64,000 nt of DNA from positions 32,947-96,946 of the forward strand of contig JAGBBX010000058.1 of NCBI GenBank assembly GCA_017938245.1, written 5' to 3'. The position numbers and the translations under genes were made by a program. The notes beneath the pieces were generated by a model, which saw only the letters and a list, made by a program, of their open reading frames with translations, was not told the DNA's origin and ran no database searches. Position 1 is the stretch's first letter. Each line of letters begins with the position of its first letter. Positions 32,499 to 51,603 of the stretch are shown here, in pieces. This stretch comes from Bacteroidaceae bacterium (lineage in GTDB: Bacteria > Bacteroidota > Bacteroidia > Bacteroidales > Bacteroidaceae).

Positions 32499-33761
32499 AT
32501 GGATATCAGGCTCAATGGAATATTATCGGGTGCAGTAACGCCGCCGCCTTCAAAATCACAGGCGCATCGTCTGCTTATATGTGCGGCTCTGGCAGCAGAG
32601 CCTTGTGCAATTGTATGCAGCGCTTTGAACGACGATATTGTGGCAACGATGAACTGCCTGAATGCTCTTGGAGCCGATATAAAATATAACAACGGGATTT
32701 TTACCGTCTCGCCCGTAAAACTGCAAAAGGGTGCTACACTTAATTGTGGCGAGAGTGGCTCAACACTGCGCTTTTTGCTGTCGGTAGCGGCTGCGCTTGG
32801 TGCCGATGCTACCTTTGTGGGGGCCGGTAAACTGCCACAGCGTCCCAATGGGGCTTTGTGCGATGCTCTTGCACAGCACGGAATAGAATTTGAGAGGCAC
32901 ACGTCCGATGCCGAGCTTCCGCTTACCTGTCGAGGTGCTCTTGTTGCAGGCACCTATCGACTGCCGGGAAATATATCCTCACAGTATCTTACGGGGCTTC
33001 TTTTCGCGCTCCCTCTTTTGGAACAAAGTAGCACGATAGAGATTACCGATGGACTTACAAGTGCTTCGTATGTCGATATGACACTTGACGCAGTGCGTAG
33101 AGCAGGTGTCACAATTGTCGACAAAGGCAGCCTTTACGAGATTGTGGGACAACAGCAATACCATCTTCCACAAGAGACAGTGGTCGAGGGCGATTGGTCG
33201 GCAGCTGCTTTCTGGTTGGTGGCAGGTGTTATAGGAAAGTTTCCAATCGTTGTGCAGGGAGTGAGATACGACTCGTTGCAGGGTGACCGTTGCATAGTAG
33301 ACCACCTGCGTAAGATGGGTGCATTCATAGAGATTGCCGATGATGGGGTGGTGGCCTTCCCCTCTCAACTCTTCGGGACCGACCTCGATTGTATGGATAC
33401 CCCCGACCTTGTACCCATCCTTTCGGTGGCAGCGGCAGTAGCATCGGGTAGTACCGAGTTCTACAATGTAGGGCGTTTGCGATATAAAGAGAGTGACCGC
33501 TTGGCTGCAATGCAAAAGACTCTTGCAGCATTTGGTATCGCATCGTCGGTGGGTGAGGATACATTTACCGTATGTGGCGGTGCTCCAAAGGTGTTGGCGC
33601 CTGTAGAGAGTTTCGGCGACCACCGTATAGCAATGTCGGCGGCAATCTTGTCGACAATAGCCGAGGGCGAAACAACAATCCTCGGGGCCGAGTGTGTGGC
33701 AAAATCGTATCCCTCTTTCTACGAGCATTTTCAGATGCTCGGGGGTAATGTAAACAGATGA
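32499..33761 (+). CDS. aroA: 3-phosphoshikimate 1-carboxyvinyltransferase (EPSP synthase)
   Basis: 420 residues. It adds enolpyruvate to shikimate 3-phosphate. The start PPPSKSQAHRLLICAAL has the substrate Lys, NCGESGSTLRFLL the second motif, and LRYKESDRLAAM and FGDHRIAMSAAI close the active site. The GES rather than GNA/GNS form of the second motif resembles the class II type. It lies 6 bases after aroB. Confidence 0.94.
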   Translation: MDIRLNGILSGAVTPPPSKSQAHRLLICAALAAEPCAIVCSALNDDIVATMNCLNALGADIKYNNGIFTVSPVKLQKGATLNCGESGSTLRFLLSVAAALGADATFVGAGKLPQRPNGALCDALAQHGIEFERHTSDAELPLTCRGALVAGTYRLPGNISSQYLTGLLFALPLLEQSSTIEITDGLTSASYVDMTLDAVRRAGVTIVDKGSLYEIVGQQQYHLPQETVVEGDWSAAAFWLVAGVIGKFPIVVQGVRYDSLQGDRCIVDHLRKMGAFIEIADDGVVAFPSQLFGTDLDCMDTPDLVPILSVAAAVASGSTEFYNVGRLRYKESDRLAAMQKTLAAFGIASSVGEDTFTVCGGAPKVLAPVESFGDHRIAMSAAILSTIAEGETTILGAECVAKSYPSFYEHFQMLGGNVNR

Positions 33762-42858: not shown

Positions 42859-43962
42859 TTACGAATGATAGTTGTTTACCGCCTCGACAATCTGTTGAAT
42901 ATCGTTATCGTTTAACAGAGGGTGACAGGGTAGACTGATTTCTTGTTGCGATAATCTCTCGGCAACGGGTAGCGAAAGCGTGGCATACTGCCTATAGCAC
43001 TCTTGCAGGTGTACGGGACTCGGGTAGTGTATCTGCGTCTCAATGCCTTTCAGGGCAAGATGCTTCTGCAAAGCATCGCGACTGCCGCATAGCAACGGGA
43101 AAATATGAAATACGTGTTGCGAATAGTCGGGGATGAATGGTGTTTGCACAAGTGGATTCTCTATTCCCGCAATGAGGTTTTGTGCCACCTCTTGTCGTTT
43201 CTTGTTCAGGGCATCGAGATTACGTAGTTTTATGCGCAAAACAGCTGCCTGTATCTCGTCGAGGCGACTGTTTACTCCTATGCTCTCGTGTATATATTTT
43301 CTGTTGCTGCCGTAGTTGTGAAGCGCCTTTATTGCATTGGCAAGTTCCTCGTTGTTGGTGGTGACGGCGCCTGCATCGCCCATTGCTCCAAGATTTTTTC
43401 CGGGGTAGAAACTATGTGCAGCAGCATCGCCCAAAGAGCCGGTACGCGCTCCCTGATATAATGCTCCCTGTGCCTGTGCATTATCCTCGACTATGATGAT
43501 GCCTCTCTCGCTGCACGTCTCGGCAAGCTTTCGGCTGAATGAGTTTTGTCCATACAGATGCACCAATAGTACAGCTTTTGTATCATCGGCTATTGATGCA
43601 AGCATCTCCTCCTCGCCGGCAAGATAACTTGTTGGGTTGGGGTCGACAAAGAGAGGGCGCAGGTTGTTATGTGTGATGGCAAGTACCGAGGCAATAAATG
43701 TATTTGCAGGGACAAGTACCTTATCGCCATCGTGCAGGATGCCTAACTGCTTGTAAGCATTGAATATGAGCCATAGAGCATCGTATCCGTTGCCACATCC
43801 TATGCAGTACTGTGTGCCGATGTATTCGGCATACTCTCTCTCGAAAGTCGAGCACTCTTCGCCCATAATATACCATCCACGACTGAGTATGCGCTTTACG
43901 GCTGACTCAATCTCGCTGTTATATTGTGCATTTATCTCATTTAGTGGCAGATAGGGTATCAT
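42859..43962 (-). CDS. DegT/DnrJ/EryC1 sugar aminotransferase
   Basis: 367 residues from ATG 43962; the open frame extends upstream but [18 protein letters not shown] is the family start and overlaps the previous stop by 4 bases (ATGA). A PLP enzyme that transaminates a keto-sugar nucleotide. It has [27 protein letters not shown] and the PLP Lys 189 in [17 protein letters not shown]. With the upstream isomerase homologues it should make a dTDP-3-amino-3,6-dideoxyhexose (FdtB/QdtB type). The exact sugar is not certain. Confidence 0.93.
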
Positions 43963-44378
43963 TGTTCTCTCTTGTATTTTAGAAAATCCTGAAAATCGCG
44001 TATGTAGTCGGTGGGTTCGTAGGGGATTGATGCAAGCACCAGCGCGACGGCGCCCGATGAGAAATTGCGAAGTTCCTCCCATACTCCCGGCGGCAGAAGA
44101 AGCGCCTTAGAGGGATTGTTCAGTGTGAATGTCTGTTCGCGCTTGCCGTCGTTGACATACACCTCGAAACTACCCGAGGTAGCGATAATAAGCTCACGCA
44201 GCGTCTTATGGCTGTGCCCGCCTCGTGATACTCCTCCGGGAATATCGTAGATGAAAAATACCCTCTTTGTCTCGAACTGCTCGGTTTTGCCGTTGTCTAC
44301 TACGGTGAGGTTTCCCGTTGCACCGTGATGCTTGCCAAGCTCCACTATGCGGCAGTCGTCAATGGTGCTCTCTTTCAT
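43959..44378 (-). CDS. dTDP-4-keto-6-deoxyhexose 3,4-ketoisomerase (FdtA/QdtA type)
   Basis: 139 residues, a cupin of the WxcM/FdtA family. FFIYDIPGG precedes the RGGHSH motif with His 55 and His 57, then [17 protein letters not shown]. In the characterised FdtA the paired His of this motif act in proton transfer between C3 and C4. The gene overlaps the next by 4 bases on both sides, so the cassette is translated together. It likely moves the keto group to C3 for the aminotransferase. Confidence 0.88.
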
Positions 44379-44800
44379 ATCTCTCCACGTGTTTTAAGGT
44401 CGATAAATCTTGAAAAGTCGCGTATGTAGTCGCGGGGCGAGTAGGGTGTCGAGGATATCACAAGGGCGGTTGAGTTTGTGGCGAAGTTGCATAGTCGGCG
44501 CCAAGTGCCCGAGGGTACGTATAGTGCTTTGTCGCAACGCTCCAGACGAAAAATCTGCTCTTCGTTGCCGTCGTGCACCTGCACGTCGAAACTGCCCGAG
44601 AGGGCGATTATCAGTTCTCGGCTGTTGTAGTAGGCGTGGCCGCCACGATGCTCTCCTCCCGGGACATCGTAAATCCAGTAGGTGCGTGCAATCTCAAACG
44701 GCAGGCCTTTGCCTGCCTGTATCACCGAGAGATTACCGCGCTTGTCGCGTATCTTTCCCAATGCTATTATGCGTGCCTTACTACTTCTTTTCTTTGCCAT
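44375..44800 (-). CDS. Second FdtA/WxcM-type cupin, variant active site
   Basis: 141 residues, paralogous to the neighbour: YWIYDVPGG, RGGHAYY, ELIIALSGSFDVQVHDG and ALYVPSGTW align without gaps. The second His of the H-x-H motif is replaced by Tyr 57, while His 55 stays. It could be a different isomerase (opposite C4 configuration), a partner that forms a heterodimer with the first, or a non-enzymatic copy. Its start overlaps the acyltransferase gene by 20 bases. Confidence 0.82.
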   Translation of the reverse strand: MAKKRSSKARIIALGKIRDKRGNLSVIQAGKGLPFEIARTYWIYDVPGGEHRGGHAYYNSRELIIALSGSFDVQVHDGNEEQIFRLERCDKALYVPSGTWRRLCNFATNSTALVISSTPYSPRDYIRDFSRFIDLKTRGEI

Positions 44801-45758
44801 TATCGACTCTTTTTATCTCTATTGAATATGTGTCGTATATTGTGGCTCGTCCACCCAAACGTTCTTTGTGTGCAATGAGTCCGCTGTTCAGATAGTCTCC
44901 TCCTTGCTCGGTCGATACTCCAAAATCGAAATAGTCGAGTCCCGAGAATCTGTCGCTTATAAGGTATTCGTAGAGGTAGTCGAGAGCTCCTACTCGGCGC
45001 CCCTCATCTGTTGCCCCGATGTATTGCGTGTGTGCGACATTGCCTGTGACATAAACCACAACACCTCCCAATGTGGTACCGCTGTTGTCGGTTACGCGTA
45101 GCAGTAAAATATTCTGCGGAAAGAGGCTGTGCAGTAGCTCAATCTCTTGCAACGTATGTACAGGGGCAACGCCATATTTTCCCATCAAACGCTCCTCGAG
45201 GATTTTCCAGAAATCGGCAAAATTGTCATCCTCTATAATGTGCAGGCGGCTTTTTGCTGCTGCGGTCATTTTGCGTCTGCCTTTAAAAGGCAGCGGCCTG
45301 CTCAGTTTTATTGTTGTCGATATTTTACGCTCTACAAGCAGGGCGTTGTTGCGAAAGAGCGCGTAGAGGTCTTCTTCGCAAGGGTAGCTGTGGTATATGT
45401 GTGGTACAGGACGGTAGAGTATCTTTTTTGCGTTTGTCTCTTTTGCTAAATGCTTTTTTAATGCACCGAAAATATCGAGTACACGCTCGGCTGTGGTGTC
45501 GTTATTCATAATAAGACCACCGTATGTCAGTCCGCCGTGCGATACAACGGCTTCATCTGTTATATTTGCAGGGAGTAACGCTATAAGCCTATCGCCACAA
45601 TAGAAAAGCATTGAGTAGTCGCTGAAACGGTCGCTGTGATACTCCATATATGCGCGCTTGTGCAGAAAAGTGCCGTTGCGACTCTTCTCTACAAAATTAT
45701 CCCATATATCCTTTAGGTTGGCGCTGTAACCAACAACCGTTATGCTCTCTCTCTCCAT
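44781..45758 (-). CDS. FemAB-like / GNAT acyltransferase
   Basis: 325 residues with two GNAT-like halves: about 1-140 (KRAYMEYHSDRFSDYSMLFY ... GGLTYGGLIM) and about 160-315 (VYVTGNVAHTQYIGATDEGR and FDFGVSTEQGG). This resembles the FemAB-type acetyltransferases in Bacteroidales surface-polysaccharide loci. In this cassette it probably N-acylates the 3-amino sugar (the place of FdtC/QdtC), which is inference from context. It is the first gene, with a -7 element upstream at 45773-45780. Confidence 0.75.
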   Translation of the reverse strand: MERESITVVGYSANLKDIWDNFVEKSRNGTFLHKRAYMEYHSDRFSDYSMLFYCGDRLIALLPANITDEAVVSHGGLTYGGLIMNNDTTAERVLDIFGALKKHLAKETNAKKILYRPVPHIYHSYPCEEDLYALFRNNALLVERKISTTIKLSRPLPFKGRRKMTAAAKSRLHIIEDDNFADFWKILEERLMGKYGVAPVHTLQEIELLHSLFPQNILLLRVTDNSGTTLGGVVVYVTGNVAHTQYIGATDEGRRVGALDYLYEYLISDRFSGLDYFDFGVSTEQGGDYLNSGLIAHKERLGGRATIYDTYSIEIKRVDNGKEKK

Positions 45759-45975: not shown

Positions 45976-46770
45976 TTATTCCTCTTCCTTATTGACTTTT
46001 TTGGCTATCCATATACTGCACTCATACAGGGCGTATAATGGTAATGTCACAAGGATACAAGTCATTACATCGGGTGGTGTTATAATGGCAGAAACGGCCG
46101 TTATTATAAAGATAGCATATTTCCTGTATTTCGATAAAATTTGTGCATTTACGATCCCTATCTTCGATAATATGTAAATTATCACAGGCATCTGGAATAC
46201 TACTCCCATAACTAATGTCAGTGACGTGAAAGTTGTGATGTATGAACTTAGTGTTATCATTGTATTCACCTTATCAGCGACACTGTATGTTCCTAAGAAA
46301 CGGAAAGAGATAGGGAATATAATGAAATAACTCATCAGAACTCCTATAATAAACAGTGAGTATATAATAACAGCTACATATACCGAATATTTACGCTCAT
46401 TTTCATATAGGGCCGGCAATATAAAACAGAAAAGTTCGTACAAAATATAGGGCGAAGCTAATAAGCACCCTAAATAAATAGAGGTTGTAATGTGCGTCAT
46501 AAATTGACTGGCCAGGTCTGTGGCTATCATCTCGACCACATATTTTTCGAAATGAAAATCTATGCCAAGCCATTGTATGACATTTTCTATGTAACGATAT
46601 GTAACAAAGTCCCACTCGCTTGGTGCCAAAAGGATGCTCCAAGCAATGTCTTTAATTATAAATATGAGAAATGCAAGGGTTACAGTAACTCCCAATATGC
46701 GAAATAACATTCGACGAAGCACTTCCAAGTGTCCGCCGAACGTTAGCAGATTCTCATTCTCGTCTCGCAT
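45976..46770 (-). CDS. tatC: Twin-arginine translocase subunit TatC
   Basis: 264 residues with six membrane segments. FGGHLEVLRRMLFR carries the conserved Glu that reads the RR motif of signals; FCFILPALYENER, FPISFRFLG and ITPPDVMTCILVTLPLYALYE are family landmarks. It receives folded Tat substrates in the inner membrane. The start overlaps the tatA stop by one base (TAATG). It is the last gene of a transcription unit that begins with a Tat-signal precursor peptide. Confidence 0.96.
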   Translation of the reverse strand: MRDENENLLTFGGHLEVLRRMLFRILGVTVTLAFLIFIIKDIAWSILLAPSEWDFVTYRYIENVIQWLGIDFHFEKYVVEMIATDLASQFMTHITTSIYLGCLLASPYILYELFCFILPALYENERKYSVYVAVIIYSLFIIGVLMSYFIIFPISFRFLGTYSVADKVNTMITLSSYITTFTSLTLVMGVVFQMPVIIYILSKIGIVNAQILSKYRKYAIFIITAVSAIITPPDVMTCILVTLPLYALYECSIWIAKKVNKEEE

Positions 46771-46994
46771 TATTCCGGTTTTTCATTTTCGTCTAATGAA
46801 GTGTCATCGCTATTTCCTTCATTAGTAGGTTTGACTTCATTTTCTGTCGCAGGAATGTTTTCTTCATCTTTCATTCCTTTTTTGAACTCTTTCACTCCTT
46901 GTCCTAACCCACGCATCATTTCGGGTAGCTTTTTGCCTCCGAAAATCAATAAAGCAAGACCTCCTAAGAGCAATAATTCTGTTGTTCCTATCAT
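46770..46994 (-). CDS. tatA: Twin-arginine translocase subunit TatA
   Basis: 74 residues. One N-terminal membrane helix (TTELLLLGGLALLIF), then FGGKKLPEMMRGLGQGVKEFKKGM, the amphipathic helix of the family, and an acidic tail. No TatB is present nearby, so this is a minimal TatAC system. The gene begins 4 bases after the stop of the 91-residue modification protein, which ties Tat to the peptide operon. Confidence 0.95.
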   Translation of the reverse strand: MIGTTELLLLGGLALLIFGGKKLPEMMRGLGQGVKEFKKGMKDEENIPATENEVKPTNEGNSDDTSLDENEKPE

Positions 46995-46998
46995 ACTA

Positions 46999-47274
46999 TT
47001 ACATATTATCTGTTAAATAAATATTGCAGGTGTCAAAGTCTATTTCCCAATTGCCACCTTCAACGCTTTCCCATTGATATTTCTCGTCCATACGGTCCCA
47101 CCAATTCTGGAATTTAGCCCCGGTTTCACCCATATCCTTGACGAGTTTCTCATAAAGTTCCGTATTATCAGCAGTCAAAATCTTTGCCAACTCATTTAAA
47201 CCATTTCGACGTTCAAAAAGAGTTTGAATTTCATTTCTTTCTTCTACTGTTACTTGTCCTATGTTTTTTTTCAT
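46999..47274 (-). CDS. CXXX-repeat peptide modification system protein
   Basis: 91 residues, helical and acidic, beginning KKNIGQVTVEERNEIQTLFERRNGL, then KMLTADN-like ILTADNTELYEKLVKDMGET and WWDRMDEKYQWE. From memory this is the small TIGR04116-type protein found only beside CXXX-repeat peptides and their radical SAM enzymes in Bacteroidetes. Its role is unknown; a precursor-binding or scaffold function is inference. It has a single Cys, no signal peptide, and lies 4 bases before tatA. Confidence 0.75.
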   Translation of the reverse strand: MKKNIGQVTVEERNEIQTLFERRNGLNELAKILTADNTELYEKLVKDMGETGAKFQNWWDRMDEKYQWESVEGGNWEIDFDTCNIYLTDNM

Positions 47275-47346
47275 TGCTTCTTCTGTTTTTAATTACCTCT
47301 TAGCCTTTTTGGTGTCATTGCTGATTACTGACAATGACGTTTATGT

Positions 47347-47808
47347 TTAATATATGATACCGGAGTTTCTGGGTGCAGACGGGATTTTATATACTGTGGT
47401 ACTTGTTAGATTACCCGTTCTGTCATAATAGCACATATTAATAGTTTGTCTATCTGCCGAAACAATGATTGCGGTGCTGTAATCCCAATAAGGTTGACTT
47501 GTGCGGTAGGTCTGTACCAATCCGGCTGTTCCAGAGCGATAATAGTAATAAATACTCATACCGTTTCTTCTGCTATGCAGTCTGTAGCCATCGGTTCCAT
47601 CACCCATAGACATCGCAGGTTTGCTACCAAAATAAACACGGTCGCGCTCAAATACAAACTGTTGGTTGGGGTTCAATGGTGCGTGGGAACTGACGGTGCC
47701 GTCGGCATATACAGTCTTTACAAAAACATAATTCACCGCTTGTGCATTTACAGACATTGTAGCACAAAAGAATAACACAGATAAAATTGATAAAATCTTA
47801 GTTTTCAT
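47347..47808 (-). CDS. Small secreted protein in the RiPP operon, function unknown
   Basis: 153 residues with a Sec signal peptide cleaved near VNAQA (about 23), so it leaves by Sec, unlike the precursor. The mature part is rich in Tyr, Ser and Arg, with YFGSKPAMSMGDGTDGYRLH and ISIYYYYRSG-like segments, and one Cys (INMCYYD). It looks beta-rich; I do not recognise a family. It sits between the partner maturase and the 91-residue protein on the same strand. It could bind the exported peptide, give immunity, or be unrelated cargo. Confidence 0.7.
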   Translation of the reverse strand: MKTKILSILSVLFFCATMSVNAQAVNYVFVKTVYADGTVSSHAPLNPNQQFVFERDRVYFGSKPAMSMGDGTDGYRLHSRRNGMSIYYYYRSGTAGLVQTYRTSQPYWDYSTAIIVSADRQTINMCYYDRTGNLTSTTVYKIPSAPRNSGIIY

Positions 47809-47881
47809 ATTTTCAAAATAGATTAATTAATACAAAGTGTTTTCTTGAATTTTATTTATTGCAATAGGGTATATATTCATA

Positions 47882-48832
47882 TTACCACTCTTGTCTTACA
47901 TTAAAAGGATCAAGGTACTTAATCTCTTTTATGTCTATGTTGGGCAGAAATTCTTTATGTTTGCGAATGTTGTGTAATAGTTCTCTACTTGCATTGCGTT
48001 CCAAATGAGCCACTACGCACTGTTCATGACTCGGTGTATTCACTTCATAAGTCATCTTGCGGTTAAGCCATACACAACGCTTGCATTGATAAGCATCGCA
48101 ATGGCGGCAAATAGGAGCATACTCCAATCGATAAAGTTTAGGATTCTTTATATCGAGCCCTTCGGCGAGTGAACCTATACTATATCCTTCGGTAGAATAG
48201 AATGCAGGACACACATAAAATCTTCCATCGGGTGCGAGGGTGATGCTCTCCCATCCTGCGTTGCAGTTGTTCATTTTGTCCAGCATTATGCGGTCGGTAA
48301 GCAGGTTGAGTTGAACATCCTTTCCGTTTATGTGTAACTCTTCCATTTTGACAGATAAGGTACCAAGTATGCTTCTGTACGTCTCAAAGTCCTCTTCTGT
48401 GAATGTCTCTATGTCTGTTATTACGATGTTTAGACGCATACATTTTGTAATGGCAGTTCCAATCTCATCGTATTTCTCAAAAAGAGTCTTTTTGTCTGTT
48501 CGAAGTACATAAATCTTCTCTTCCTTGAGTGCTAAACCGCTTTTCCATCCGTTTAACACCACAACATCTGCATCGTCGGCATATACCGACTCCGATGATG
48601 CTATTTTGTTGTTGTCGATGCTTTCCATTATCTCAATGTATTCCGAAGTAAGTTCGTAGTCGGGCAATACATATTGAATCATAAGATTCTCCTTCATCGC
48701 AAATAGAATACCTTTTTTTAGGTCGTCCAGCGATATCAAATGTGGTTTCTCTGCTTTGTTCGAGTAGTGACAATACGAAGTGCTTGTATCGTCCAACTGT
48801 ATAATAATATATTGTAACATAGTGCTTAACAA
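47882..48832 (-). CDS. CXXX-repeat peptide maturase partner with SPASM-like domain, no SAM motif
   Basis: 316 residues. The N-terminal half has no CX3CX2C motif; it resembles the degenerate barrel of RiPP maturation partners. The C-terminal part (about 185-285) has a SPASM-like Cys pattern: NNCNAGWESITLAPDGRFYVCPAFY, then CRHCDAYQCKRCVW. That can hold auxiliary iron-sulfur clusters. From memory it fits TIGR04119, 'CXXX repeat peptide maturase'. Its start overlaps the radical SAM gene by 7 bases, so a stoichiometric complex is likely. Start at codon 5 (48820) is possible. Confidence 0.78.
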   Translation of the reverse strand: MLSTMLQYIIIQLDDTSTSYCHYSNKAEKPHLISLDDLKKGILFAMKENLMIQYVLPDYELTSEYIEIMESIDNNKIASSESVYADDADVVVLNGWKSGLALKEEKIYVLRTDKKTLFEKYDEIGTAITKCMRLNIVITDIETFTEEDFETYRSILGTLSVKMEELHINGKDVQLNLLTDRIMLDKMNNCNAGWESITLAPDGRFYVCPAFYSTEGYSIGSLAEGLDIKNPKLYRLEYAPICRHCDAYQCKRCVWLNRKMTYEVNTPSHEQCVVAHLERNASRELLHNIRKHKEFLPNIDIKEIKYLDPFNVRQEW

Positions 48833-50052
48833 TTAATGTGGTCGGACATTGGTTTTTTTGTGTGTTTGGCAACTTCTTCTTTTGCAATACCCTCAAGTTC
48901 CAGCTTCCTGTATAGTTTGTTCCAATAATAATTATTAGCTCTTACTTGCGCCTTGTGCATTTTACATATAGCTGTTGCACGCTGGAAAACAGTAGGTGTC
49001 TCTGCTGCATCATAATTTTCACCTTGACACCACGCACAGCCACTTGCTACTTCGCAATCGATACACTCTTTTTTACTTTGCGTGAAGCGGTCAAGAGTTA
49101 AGAATGGGCGAAGTTTGTTTTTGTCAATTCCATCTTTTATGTTTCCTATAATCCAGGCCTTTTTATTGCGCAAAGAGTATTGTGCAAAGCGTGTGCAAGG
49201 GTAGAAATTGCCTGCAGCATCAATAGAGAGCATCTTTCCTGTTCCGCACCAATTTTTATTATCTATACTAAGGTCTATGGGCTTACCTATTTTTTCGTCG
49301 AAAAAAGAACAAACAAACTCTTTATAATATTCCTTCTCTATTATGGCATCAGCAAGCTGTATTAGCTGTTCTTCGAATCTTGCGTCGTCACCATCATTCC
49401 ATACGTTTTCAAATACACAATTGATATTGACCTCCTTAATTCCAAGAGAATATAGATGTAATACGCTCTCTTTAATATAAGGAATATCTGCGGAAGATAT
49501 TGTAACTTTTGTACTGGCATTAGGAAATTGCTGCAACCATAGTGGAATGTTGCGTACGATGTCTTTGTATGATCCACGCTCTCCTTCTCCTTTATATATG
49601 CGGTTCAGGTCGTGCTTTATCTCGGTTCCGTCAATAGTAATACCAATACTAAGATGGTCGATATTTCTTTTTATAAATTCTTGTACTTTTTCTGTGTGAT
49701 AATTAATTCCATTTGTTGAGAATGAGAAACGATAAGAATTAAACCAATGATGATTTCTCTTAAACATTTCGATTTTTATATAGTTGCATATCTTTTCAAT
49801 CAGGTCTATCTCTAAAAATGGTTCACCACCTATAAAATCCCAAACAACACTATTCTCGTTGAATTCTTTATCATTATCGAGTATATAATCAATTGCCTGT
49901 TTAGCTGTATCCCAAGACATACGTTCTTTGGTGTTTTTGCCAACTAAATAACAATATTTGCAGGCTAATTGACAGTCTTTGGTTACAATGAAAGTAATAG
50001 ATTTTGCAGTACTCTCTTCCCAAGAAGGTCTTTGTTCCTTGAATTCTTTCAT
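48826..50052 (-). CDS. Radical SAM/SPASM peptide maturase, CXXX-repeat target type
   Basis: 408 residues. The [4Fe-4S]-SAM motif is C27-x3-C31-x2-C34 (TKDCQLACKYCYL), with the GGEPF motif of the SAM site and STNG later. A SPASM domain (about 270-370) has WCGTGKMLSIDAAGNFYPC and CIDCEVASGCAWCQGEN. These enzymes make thioether or C-C bonds in peptides. The placement next to a CXXX-repeat peptide fits TIGR04115. The likely product is thioether links from the precursor's seven Cys; the bond type is inference. The ATG at 50052 follows a hairpin after the precursor gene. Confidence 0.9.
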   Translation of the reverse strand: MKEFKEQRPSWEESTAKSITFIVTKDCQLACKYCYLVGKNTKERMSWDTAKQAIDYILDNDKEFNENSVVWDFIGGEPFLEIDLIEKICNYIKIEMFKRNHHWFNSYRFSFSTNGINYHTEKVQEFIKRNIDHLSIGITIDGTEIKHDLNRIYKGEGERGSYKDIVRNIPLWLQQFPNASTKVTISSADIPYIKESVLHLYSLGIKEVNINCVFENVWNDGDDARFEEQLIQLADAIIEKEYYKEFVCSFFDEKIGKPIDLSIDNKNWCGTGKMLSIDAAGNFYPCTRFAQYSLRNKKAWIIGNIKDGIDKNKLRPFLTLDRFTQSKKECIDCEVASGCAWCQGENYDAAETPTVFQRATAICKMHKAQVRANNYYWNKLYRKLELEGIAKEEVAKHTKKPMSDHINC

Positions 50053-50068
50053 GGCTAAATTGAACTTG

Positions 50069-50112
50069 ATAGGGACTGACCTATATTTGGCTTAAAAAAG
50101 GTCAGTCCCTAT
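50069..50112 (-). promoter_or_regulatory. Intercistronic hairpin between precursor and maturase genes
   Basis: A 13-bp perfect inverted repeat (50069-50081 and 50100-50112, ATAGGGACTGACC / GGTCAGTCCCTAT) with an 18-base loop lies between the precursor stop and the radical SAM start. On the minus strand no T-run follows the second arm, so it is not a strong terminator. It may protect the precursor mRNA end and set a high precursor-to-enzyme ratio. Confidence 0.7.
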
Positions 50113-50118
50113 TTTTTG

Positions 50119-50385
50119 TTAACGTTTGATGCTCTCTACCATGCTTGTTCTGCGTGCATGACTGCTACGGCAACTTCTGTTACATGTGGTTTGACAAGTT
50201 GCACTACAAGTTGCATGACAACCGTGATAACAGGTTTTATTGCATCCCATAGGCTCACCCTCAGCTGCCTCAGAAATCAGAGGAGCATTAGCCAATACGA
50301 TTGCACCAAGAATGGGCAGAGCACCCTTTGCTGCTTTTTTGAAGAACTCACGACGGCTCTGGAGTTCATTTTTCTTATTTTCCAT
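50119..50385 (-). CDS. Tat-exported CXXX-repeat RiPP precursor peptide
   Basis: 88 residues. The leader has a twin-arginine motif SRREFFKK (residues 10-17) and a hydrophobic stretch to about 38, with a likely cut after SEAAE (about 41). The core has seven Cys at 48, 52, 56, 60, 64, 68 and 72, exactly every fourth residue (units CNKT, CYHG, CHAT, CSAT, CQTT, CNRS, CRSS), then a basic tail. Cys at i, i+4 line one face of a helix or let each Cys meet a Thr or Ser. It is followed by a radical SAM enzyme, a partner, and TatA/TatC. I infer a modified peptide that leaves the cell folded by Tat. Confidence 0.88.
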   Translation of the reverse strand: MENKKNELQSRREFFKKAAKGALPILGAIVLANAPLISEAAEGEPMGCNKTCYHGCHATCSATCQTTCNRSCRSSHARRTSMVESIKR

Positions 50386-50461
50386 AGTTGTGAAAATAAA
50401 GTTGCCTATGAACTCCCTAATTCAGCGTTATACGATAATGTTGATTGTGTAAATTAAGAAT

Positions 50462-50558
50462 AAAAAAAAGACGTGGGAGTTTCTACTTCTCGCTTATCCC
50501 AGTCTTCAGGCTCTCGCATTGCCTCCCCCAAGGATAAGCAACGCAGTCAGCCCACGTC
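50462..50558 (-). terminator. Terminator-like hairpin 77 bases upstream of the precursor gene
   Basis: Closing stem of 8 bp (50470-50477 with 50551-50558), inner stem of 8 bp (50492-50499 with 50532-50539) and an AGGC/GCCT tip, followed on the minus strand by TTTTTTTT. It could end an sRNA or attenuate the RiPP operon. Confidence 0.7.
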
Positions 50559-50798
50559 GTGATATATTATACAAATCATCTACCACATTGTTTGTGGCAG
50601 ATGGATATAATACACCCAACGCAGACGTTTCGTTGCCGTATCTTCTTGGGGTCAAATTTGCGAGATTTGAAGACTCGAAGATAAACGTTCGTAAACGTCC
50701 TTTTAATGAATAATTTCTATGTCTATGCTTGCGCAAAGAATATAGTAATTATCATTTTCTTAATATGTTACCCGTCCAACCCATTAAGGCTGACTGAG
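50462..50798 (-). ncRNA. Candidate structured RNA, leader of the RiPP operon or free sRNA
   Basis: About 335 bases from a consensus promoter (50836-50805) to a terminator hairpin. The stems are GACGTTT/AAACGTC (50624-50630 with 50693-50699) enclosing ATCTTC/GAAGAT (50640-50645 with 50677-50682); CATCTACCACA/TGTGGCAGATG (50577-50587 with 50593-50603); and the last, GACGTGGG/CCCACGTC (50470-50477 with 50551-50558) around GCTTATCC/GGATAAGC (50492-50499 with 50532-50539), followed by eight minus-strand Ts (50462-50469). No good promoter lies between this and the precursor start at 50385, so read-through may drive the operon. No known RNA family is recognised; 6S-like RNA or an IS relic are alternatives. 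Confidence 0.6.
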
Positions 50799-50973: not shown

Positions 50974-51603
50974 TTATCTCTCTAAAATGCCGCACTCTTT
51001 TGCATTTAGAATAATTTGTGCAGCAAGTTCTTCGATGCTTATCTCTTTTGCTTGCGCAACTCGTTGGTAGATATCGTAGAGCGGTGTGCTGCTCTCGTCG
51101 CTCTCAATGAAAAGCCTGTCGAGTGGGATTATCTTTGCTGTTTCTATGTTGAATTTTTCTCCTAATGAGATATACATTCCGGCCGAGAGCAGTTGCTGTG
51201 CTTGCGTGGGCTTTCCTCGGAATCCGTGTATTATCCAGCGCTCATTGTGCTGTTGCTCTTTGTAGGCTCTCAGTAGTAGGTCGGCTCCTTTTACAAGGTG
51301 TATGATAAGTGGCTTTTTAACTCTTTCGGATAGCTCGATGTGTTTGATGAAAACTCTGTATTGTTCCTCCTTTGTTGCCGGTGATTTCAGCGTATCGAAT
51401 CCGCACTCTCCGATGGCGACAACCTCTTTTCTTGTTACACTCTCTTCTACGATACGAAACTGTTCTTCCCATTCGTTTGAGATTCTCCAGGGGTGTATGC
51501 CTATGGAGCATAGTCGGCCATTGGGATGGTCTGTGCCAATGTTAAGGATGGCTGTGTTACCATCCTCGCGCGCTATGTGGGTGTGAATATCTGTCAGTTG
51601 CAT
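50974..51603 (-). CDS. TatD family metal-dependent hydrolase
   Basis: 209 residues, somewhat shorter than E. coli TatD (about 260). It starts TDIHTHI, has IGIHPW, VAIGECGFD (metal Glu), IHLVKGAD, IIHGFRG and FIESDESS with the final Asp, the order of a TatD-type TIM barrel. Members are DNases or repair nucleases. It is unrelated to Tat transport in spite of the name. It ends a minus-strand run from ahcY down. Confidence 0.87.
   Translation of the reverse strand: MQLTDIHTHIAREDGNTAILNIGTDHPNGRLCSIGIHPWRISNEWEEQFRIVEESVTRKEVVAIGECGFDTLKSPATKEEQYRVFIKHIELSERVKKPLIIHLVKGADLLLRAYKEQQHNERWIIHGFRGKPTQAQQLLSAGMYISLGEKFNIETAKIIPLDRLFIESDESSTPLYDIYQRVAQAKEISIEELAAQIILNAKECGILER

Follow-up and report, generated by a model that had tools for sequence, protein, structure and literature searches.

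Why should an operon that makes a small, cysteine-repeat peptide carry its own protein translocase? The question is raised by a locus of a gut-type Bacteroidaceae bacterium (assembly GCA_017938245.1) lying in a 64,000-nucleotide stretch of contig JAGBBX010000058.1 (forward-strand positions 32,947 to 96,946), the whole of which is called the window here, where genes of a CXXX-repeat system for a ribosomally synthesized and post-translationally modified peptide (RiPP) adjoin tatA and tatC, genes of the twin-arginine translocation (Tat) pathway. On the strength of the sequence comparisons presented below, we regard it as probable that the operon encodes a RiPP of the CXXX-repeat kind together with a Tat translocon dedicated to it, and that in this operon the leader of the precursor would double as the Tat signal and the peptide would be modified before it is exported.

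What does the operon contain? The window's list of open reading frames (ORFs) shows a minus-strand set of seven compact, co-directional ORFs at 45976-50385, the span given in an initial annotation made from the DNA alone. The seven genes that it described, with overlaps or short gaps, are all present, and five of them are now named by curated models. They are given below together with the two functional segments of the precursor.

50119..50385, minus strand: CXXX-repeat precursor of 88 residues (TIGR04117, 45.1 bits, E 7.9e-12, under the curated 50)
50305..50358, minus strand: leader core SRREFFKKAAKGALPILG of the precursor, with twin-arginine motif and LP box, residues 10-27 (profile of 145 precursors)
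50161..50244, minus strand: precursor core, seven cysteines at four-residue spacing, residues 48-75 (cysteine positions)
48826..50052, minus strand: radical S-adenosylmethionine (SAM)/SPASM maturase (TIGR04115, 624.7 bits)
47882..48820, minus strand: partner maturase of SPASM type, lacking the CX3CX2C motif (TIGR04119, 240.9 bits)
47347..47808, minus strand: secreted accessory protein of 153 residues, not core (no family above cut-off)
46999..47274, minus strand: 91-residue modification-system protein, called p91 here (TIGR04116, 105.1 bits)
46770..46994, minus strand: TatA (TIGR01411, 63.7 bits; PF02416, 53.6 bits)
45976..46770, minus strand: TatC of an operon-specific clade (PF00902, 202.4 bits; TIGR00945, 155.3 bits)

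The five proteins above their NCBIfam cut-offs are the radical SAM protein, its partner, p91, TatA and TatC (cut-offs of 350, 150, 50, 53.9 and 132.7 bits for TIGR04115, TIGR04119, TIGR04116, TIGR01411 and TIGR00945, respectively). TatA and TatC have the makings of a Tat translocase, passing these thresholds and keeping the conserved TatC residues, and their genes have one base in common at their ends. The partner gene starts with ATG; an alternative TTG at 48832 would run into the preceding gene. Cysteines stand at residues 48, 52, 56, 60, 64, 68 and 72 of the precursor, so that a tandem Cys-X-X-X peptide adjoins the maturase genes, as expected of a CXXX system. The precursor falls below the cut-offs of both models that describe such peptides, scoring only 12.4 bits (cut-off 20, E 0.17) against the repeat model TIGR04114; TIGR04117 scores of precursors at other loci (L numbers designate loci) include 42.6 bits at L065 and 65.9 bits at L189. 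The system is therefore assigned by its three enzymes and the cysteine repeat. These families are catalogued in NCBIfam with no product named, as had been stated at the outset.

Is the arrangement peculiar to this genome? Of 393 genomes sampled evenly across the order Bacteroidales, 12, the window's included, encode a TIGR04115 protein above cut-off, and tatAC is present at 8 of the 11 loci other than the window's. A protein search of species genomes added contig loci for the best 80 of 284 relatives; the genome labels are mostly Bacteroidales, four being Clostridia, Ruminococcus, Clostridium and Lachnospiraceae (metagenome bins, perhaps mislabelled). Removal of five duplicates left 87 distinct loci, among which near-identical pairs such as L103/L119 and L090/L095 were kept. 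At 48 of the 63 loci having more than 6 kb of downstream sequence, tatA and tatC lie downstream in the same direction, and tatC is also found at 14 of the 24 whose downstream sequence is no longer than 6 kb. The order precursor, radical SAM, partner, p91, tatA, tatC is conserved, with gaps of at most 60 nt between p91 and tatA in 59 of 63 cases and between tatA and tatC in 60 of 62; a p91 gene occurs at 83 of the 87 loci, and the exceptions (L053, L075, L088 and L126) end 56 to 1107 bases past the radical SAM gene. The controls, in pieces of 5-14 kb, were 20 radical SAM/SPASM loci of the same order, drawn from the 24 that scored best below cut-off: none of the 20 carries a tatA, tatC or p91 gene, and one (L200) is weakly matched by the partner profile. 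Because the order is kept in most relatives and in none of the controls, the window cluster is not a chance assembly, and its recurrence on dozens of contigs from various species rules out an assembly artefact as well. Elsewhere in the phylum, a 296-genome sample holds four carriers (L187, L188, L189 and L190), and lineage-based searches, which covered Bacteroidota, found none beyond these in the families of L187/L190 (2 of 61 genomes) and L188/L189 (2 of 20). The coupling of a CXXX system to Tat thus occurs in many Bacteroidales, more widely than one window could show. Relatives of the precursor do lie near tatAC, mostly in the same order, and the proposal that one operon joins a CXXX-repeat system to a TatAC of its own holds as a conserved tendency rather than an obligatory one, 15 of the 63 loci, L044 among them, being without tatAC.

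How is the precursor marked for export? The window leader has SRREFFK followed by a hydrophobic stretch, as expected of a Tat substrate, and the Tat signal initially read in this one peptide recurs in most of the family. The motif RRx[FLIM] is present in 145 of 150 precursor candidates from 82 loci, candidates being Cys-repeat ORFs of up to 320 residues near a radical SAM gene; the five without it (L077, L082, L099, L114 and L121) include cut or mis-started ORFs. The 145 precursors follow the profile ...[SNT]RRxFFKKAAKxxLPILGA..., in which the arginines (100% by selection) are followed by two phenylalanines (93% and 94%), leucine (83%), proline (89%) and glycine (66%). The proline falls within a hydrophobic stretch that is otherwise expected to vary freely in Tat signals. 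The best 17-residue hydropathy has a median of 1.82 and a minimum of 0.55. A search of 17 genomes with the leader profile, itself built from precursors of CXXX loci, gave 30 matches in 14 genomes, and 29 of the 30 lie at CXXX loci, so that this leader is not a general Tat signal.

Behind the leader, the core is defined by its cysteines, which are abundant and follow one another at every fourth residue in 2333 steps (88%), with the remaining residues variable. Paralogous precursors of one locus have a median identity of 0.41 in the leader versus 0.16 in the core outside the cysteines (115 pairs), which fits a fixed leader and a free core; at least two precursors, and up to eight, are encoded at 36 of the 82 loci. 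The predicted mode of processing differs with the exporter. Lipoprotein-type precursors alone are found at 10 loci without tatAC, versus 4 such loci with others, and at 9 loci with tatAC versus 50 (Fisher p 8e-5, with kinship left uncorrected and the lipobox called by a simple pattern). Precursors at tatAC loci, like that of the window, are thus mostly of the predicted signal-peptidase-I type, and those at loci without tatAC mostly of the predicted lipobox type.

Two further observations concern the precursors. Very long precursor ORFs with twin-arginine leaders, which lie outside the count given above, occur at L063 (8717-9967), L089 (8947-9987) and L097 (8577-9989) and encode 346-470 residues with up to 74 cysteines; the maturase may therefore act on protein-sized substrates. 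An exported family with GYGT-like strands, barrel-like by eye, is encoded upstream of the precursor at L038, L054, L057, L058, L073 and L100, adjoining lipobox-type precursors, and could be a surface partner.

Does the exporter follow the leader? At L187 and L190 the precursors have no twin arginines and a best hydropathy of 0.17 and 0.54, an ATP-binding cassette (ABC) exporter is adjacent, and neither a p91 gene nor tatAC occurs in the 11 and 15 kb fetched; both genomes nonetheless hold TatC elsewhere. L044, from Bacteroidales, follows the same pattern: its precursor is of the non-Tat kind, tatAC is missing, TatC is encoded elsewhere in its genome, and its ABC protein is a relative of the one at L187 (2.2e-89). 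It keeps p91. Within 5 kb of the radical SAM gene at the other distinct loci, there is no ABC protein of at least 400 residues related to those of L044, L187 and L190. Since all three loci combine the absence of twin arginines and of tatAC with an ABC exporter, leader and exporter change together. TatAC, named initially as the exporter, is the prevailing candidate, and an ABC exporter accompanies the non-Tat leader at L044 and, outside the 63 loci, at L187 and L190. ABC transporters are the usual route of RiPP export. The leaders RKTLPGFGF and RKTLPGLAF of L187 and L190 align by eye with Tat leaders resembling KKTLPILGA; the LP box, kept in these two distant non-Tat precursors, is probably read first by the maturase, and the leader then by Tat. 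At L188 and L189, Tat lipoprotein leaders occur with no tatAC in the 15 kb fetched and with TatC elsewhere in the genome.

Is the operon's TatC simply another copy of the general one? When 60 operon TatCs and 24 others are placed in one tree, 54 of the former fall into a single clade with support of 100/98; of the remainder, five group with one other TatC (L132), and that of L043 pairs with L128. Compared with its counterpart in the L061 operon, the window TatC shows 72% identity; compared with the other TatC encoded in the same genome, 36%. Glu125, which we take to be the equivalent of the signal-binding glutamate of E. coli TatC, is kept in all 60 operon and all 24 other proteins. The operon pair is not the sole Tat of its genome, another TatC being encoded on contig C59. 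There, a housekeeping tatAC stretch (L045, L046) is present twice over 19.6 kb, inverted and at 100% identity, so that the two copies count as one; the genome is a draft, 6.9% contaminated, and the duplication probably arose in its assembly. Among 26 operon-tatC genomes searched, a second TatC was found in 17 and no other in 9 (draft genomes).

It is conceivable, if unlikely, that the operon's tatAC is indeed a second general Tat copy, that the precursors are ordinary cargo for either translocase, and that their co-location reflects co-regulation. Such a view accommodates the 15 of 63 loci that manage without local tatAC, and in the nine draft genomes where the operon's TatC is the sole one found it would have to serve all Tat cargo. 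TatC was also found elsewhere in all 14 searched genomes whose locus has no tatAC, although 124 of the 149 genomes sampled from this order have one anyway (Pfam cut-off), so that this count is consistent with the view without being evidence for it. Against it stand the clade of their own formed by 54 of the 60 operon TatCs, the low identity to the other TatC of the same genome, the shift of exporter type with leader type, and the position of tatAC next to p91 at nearly all loci having both.

What would the maturases make of the cysteine repeat? The CX3CX2C and GGEP motifs of the radical SAM protein are invariant across 14 aligned relatives. Its best-scoring other family is PapB (NF047865, 202.4 bits, below the cut-off of 340), and the single solved structure that it matches at E 0.001 is 5WGG, which we take to be the thioether-forming enzyme CteB. 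The partner profile matches only the C-terminal, SPASM half of the radical SAM protein; the partner itself has cysteines invariant across 58 relatives and matches PDB profiles in its SPASM part only (5WGG, E 7e-4). No credible relation of p91 to a solved structure was found among PDB profiles (best E 0.32). The partner and p91 are fused at L188 (by NCBIfam) and L189 (by our own profile), and the radical SAM protein and partner at L044. We consider p91 a candidate leader-binding or proofreading partner; a strictly Tat-linked chaperone is ruled out by L044, which pairs p91 with a non-Tat leader. In the precursors, the position four residues after a cysteine is the next cysteine in 84% of 2787 cases, glutamate in 0.5%, and aspartate is not among the eight commonest residues, which rules out Asp/Glu acceptors as in PapA (CX3D/E). 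At the third X of CXXX, Ser, Thr and Gly together account for 72% of the 2333 steps. The chemistry of the radical SAM family suggests thioethers, for which the acceptor would have to differ, being either this third X or the next cysteine.

So many cysteines could also serve another end. We think it improbable that the product is a metal- or cluster-binding Cys-rich peptide, folded for Tat by cofactor loading, with the radical SAM modification minor or different. The very high cysteine content among otherwise variable residues would suit such a product, and there are precedents in two papers: most E. coli Tat cargoes bind redox cofactors (PMC3712460), and other signal-peptide Cys-rich RiPPs chelate copper (PMC12452194). 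It sits poorly, however, with a constant radical SAM/SPASM pair akin to thioether-forming enzymes, and no metal-handling gene was recognized among the recurring neighbour families, judged by eye without a Pfam scan. That the Arg-rich hydrophobic leader serves maturase recognition only, with export by another route and tatAC serving something else, is very improbable: the leader is system-specific and conserved beyond what a Tat signal needs (proline at position 13 in 89%), but L187, L190 and L044, which lack the twin arginines and hydrophobic stretch, also lack tatAC and gain an ABC exporter.

What the sequences themselves show is the set of genes and their order, how far these are conserved, the motifs of the leader, its covariation with the exporter, the distinct TatC clade and the gene fusions. 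For the RiPP operon with a dedicated Tat translocon, we infer the following model of complex formation, chemistry, masking of the signal, Tat dependence, and the final location and function of the product. The N-terminus of the precursor would serve as RiPP leader and twin-arginine signal at once. A maturase complex of the radical SAM protein, its SPASM partner and p91 would bind the leader, most likely around the LP box, and, while the peptide is still cytoplasmic, modify its four-residue cysteine repeat; thioether links from Cys, of the PapB/CteB type, are the most likely modification. As long as the complex stays bound, the signal would be masked from the membrane. The finished, compact peptide would then be handed to the operon's TatA and TatC and cross the inner membrane, after which signal peptidase I would cut it, with lipidation taking the place of this step in the lipobox relatives.

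Several points weigh against this model. L044 has p91 with neither a Tat leader nor an LP box. Fourteen of the 15 loci without tatAC keep Tat-type leaders, so general Tat must serve there. Well-supported branches of the TatC tree force at least three changes between operon and other labels, and the operon proteins are thus not one group; the link to Tat was made or moved more than once, though inheritance within a single TatC line accounts for most of it. In 10 genomes scanned with TIGR01409, a model of Tat signals in general, none of these precursors was matched, and just 2 of the genomes gave any match. Short unfolded peptides can pass Tat, which makes a folding gate uncertain. With cysteine nearly always at the fourth position, the Cys-Asp/Glu chemistry of PapB cannot apply unchanged. 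Finally, the use of the best 80 of the 284 relatives biases the locus set to close kin.

We advance only tentatively a bolder version, which would make this a RiPP class whose leader is read twice, by the three-part maturase through the region of the LP box and then by a TatAC subfamily that evolved for its cargo. Cross-linking would thereby license export, as Tat quality control would let through only the compacted repeat. With cysteine standing where PapB has its acceptor, a ladder of links from each cysteine to the next (dithioacetal-like) could result and, if true, would be a new peptide topology. The ABC-type loci and those without tatAC offer natural comparisons, and the coupling would give a handle on a catalogued system without a named product.

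How might the operon be controlled? Two elements, one ahead of the precursor gene and one behind it, are predicted to form RNA structures.

50460..50707, minus strand: structured leader RNA of about 245 nt, with terminator-like stem and U-run (z -9.8, covariance model)
50069..50112, minus strand: perfect hairpin of 14 bp between the precursor and radical SAM genes (-24 kcal/mol, z -6.2)

The z-score of -9.8 applies to the fold of 50460-50720, and 75 nt separate the end of the leader RNA from the ATG of the precursor gene. Many CXXX operons are preceded by similar DNA; in 21 of the 36 BLAST rows examined, the element stops 50-78 nt short of a precursor ATG. Thirty copies fold into a consensus of 36 pairs, 11 of them changed on both sides, with a small covariation term (-2.7 of -44.4 kcal/mol). 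A covariance model built on the 3' domain (111 nt) matches 54 of the 87 CXXX loci at E ≤ 0.001, not always adjoining the operon and with 21 of the 87 loci coming from among its 28 training copies; 47 comparison loci gave one weak match (E 0.0012; 0.40 versus 1.52 Mb of sequence). The element is not specific to CXXX systems, 1-9 copies being present in 9 of 16 genomes searched. Among the copies, which include L253-L257 and L270-L307, 27 of 38 examined end 28-89 nt ahead of an ORF, by eye often for a small lipoprotein or for other secreted or regulatory proteins; an apparent NusG/UpxY-like gene was recognized by eye behind the copy at L293. Rfam 15 has no match in the window stretch that bears the element. 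Its form suggests an attenuator-type leader that probably controls transcription. The 14-bp hairpin may limit read-through or stabilize the precursor mRNA and so adjust the ratio of precursor to enzymes; a perfect stem of at least 8 bp was present in 23 of 80 precursor 3' flanks tested, with no shuffled control.

What of the remaining genes? The slot between the partner and p91 genes holds lineage-specific inserts: extra precursors at, for example, L049, L062, L067, L080, L092 and L102, an SH3-domain protein at L116, and in the window the gene for the secreted 153-residue protein. The latter matches no NCBIfam or PHROGs family, and all its Pfam matches are sub-cut-off. The initial annotation had counted it as part of the operon; it is present in the window, but with relatives seen at just two other CXXX loci (L065 and L114) it is too rare to be a core component. 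A gene for a TatD-family nuclease lies just upstream of the operon (50974-51603, minus strand) and echoes the tatABCD arrangement of E. coli; no other CXXX locus has it nearby, which rules it out as part of the system. Downstream (42859-45758, minus strand) are a DegT-like aminotransferase gene and two tandem sugar-isomerase-like ORFs, all three recognized by eye, and a gene for a FemAB/GNAT-type protein (NCBIfam/Pfam), probably a surface-sugar cluster.

How does the operon compare with known systems? The ranthipeptide enzymes PapB, acting on PapA, and CteB are likened to it by the matches of the window radical SAM protein. The PapB paper describes links from Cys to Asp or Glu in CX3D, in contrast to the cysteine found at this spacing in CXXX precursors, and discusses a leader-binding RRE domain (PMC9413430); the TIGR04115 match of the window protein starts at residue 16. 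NapD, a proofreading chaperone, offers a likeness in the signal of NapA, whose overlapping functions (PMC3712460) recall those of the CXXX leader, although p91 shows no credible sequence relation to any solved structure.

Closer in logic are the bufferins, in which a signal peptide replaces the leader, as in the window, and premature export must be avoided; RiPPs with signal peptides that travel by Sec are called highly unusual there (PMC12452194). Lipoprotein RiPP hybrids exist as well (PMC12636315, a preprint). Both rely on MNIO enzymes and on the general Sec or lipoprotein pathway, whereas the window has a dedicated TatAC and a radical SAM enzyme; no MNIO family member is among the nine window proteins scanned against NCBIfam and Pfam, and neither "twin-arginine" nor "Tat" occurs in the main texts of these two papers. 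A translocon dedicated to the product and of the Tat type, which carries folded proteins, would, together with a modifying complex, make the question of premature export in signal-peptide RiPPs directly testable. A survey of Bacteroidales RiPP clusters calls the peptidase-ABC transporter a common export strategy, and its main text contains neither CXXX nor Tat (PMC10352776). We found no description of a CXXX-Tat coupling in the open-access literature searched. The CXXX-repeat system itself (TIGR04114, TIGR04115, TIGR04116, TIGR04117 and TIGR04119) is already catalogued, without a product, under NCBIfam names that mention neither Tat nor chemistry; the window resembles it in three enzymes above cut-off and adds tatAC, and it is this conserved coupling to a dedicated Tat pair that stands out.

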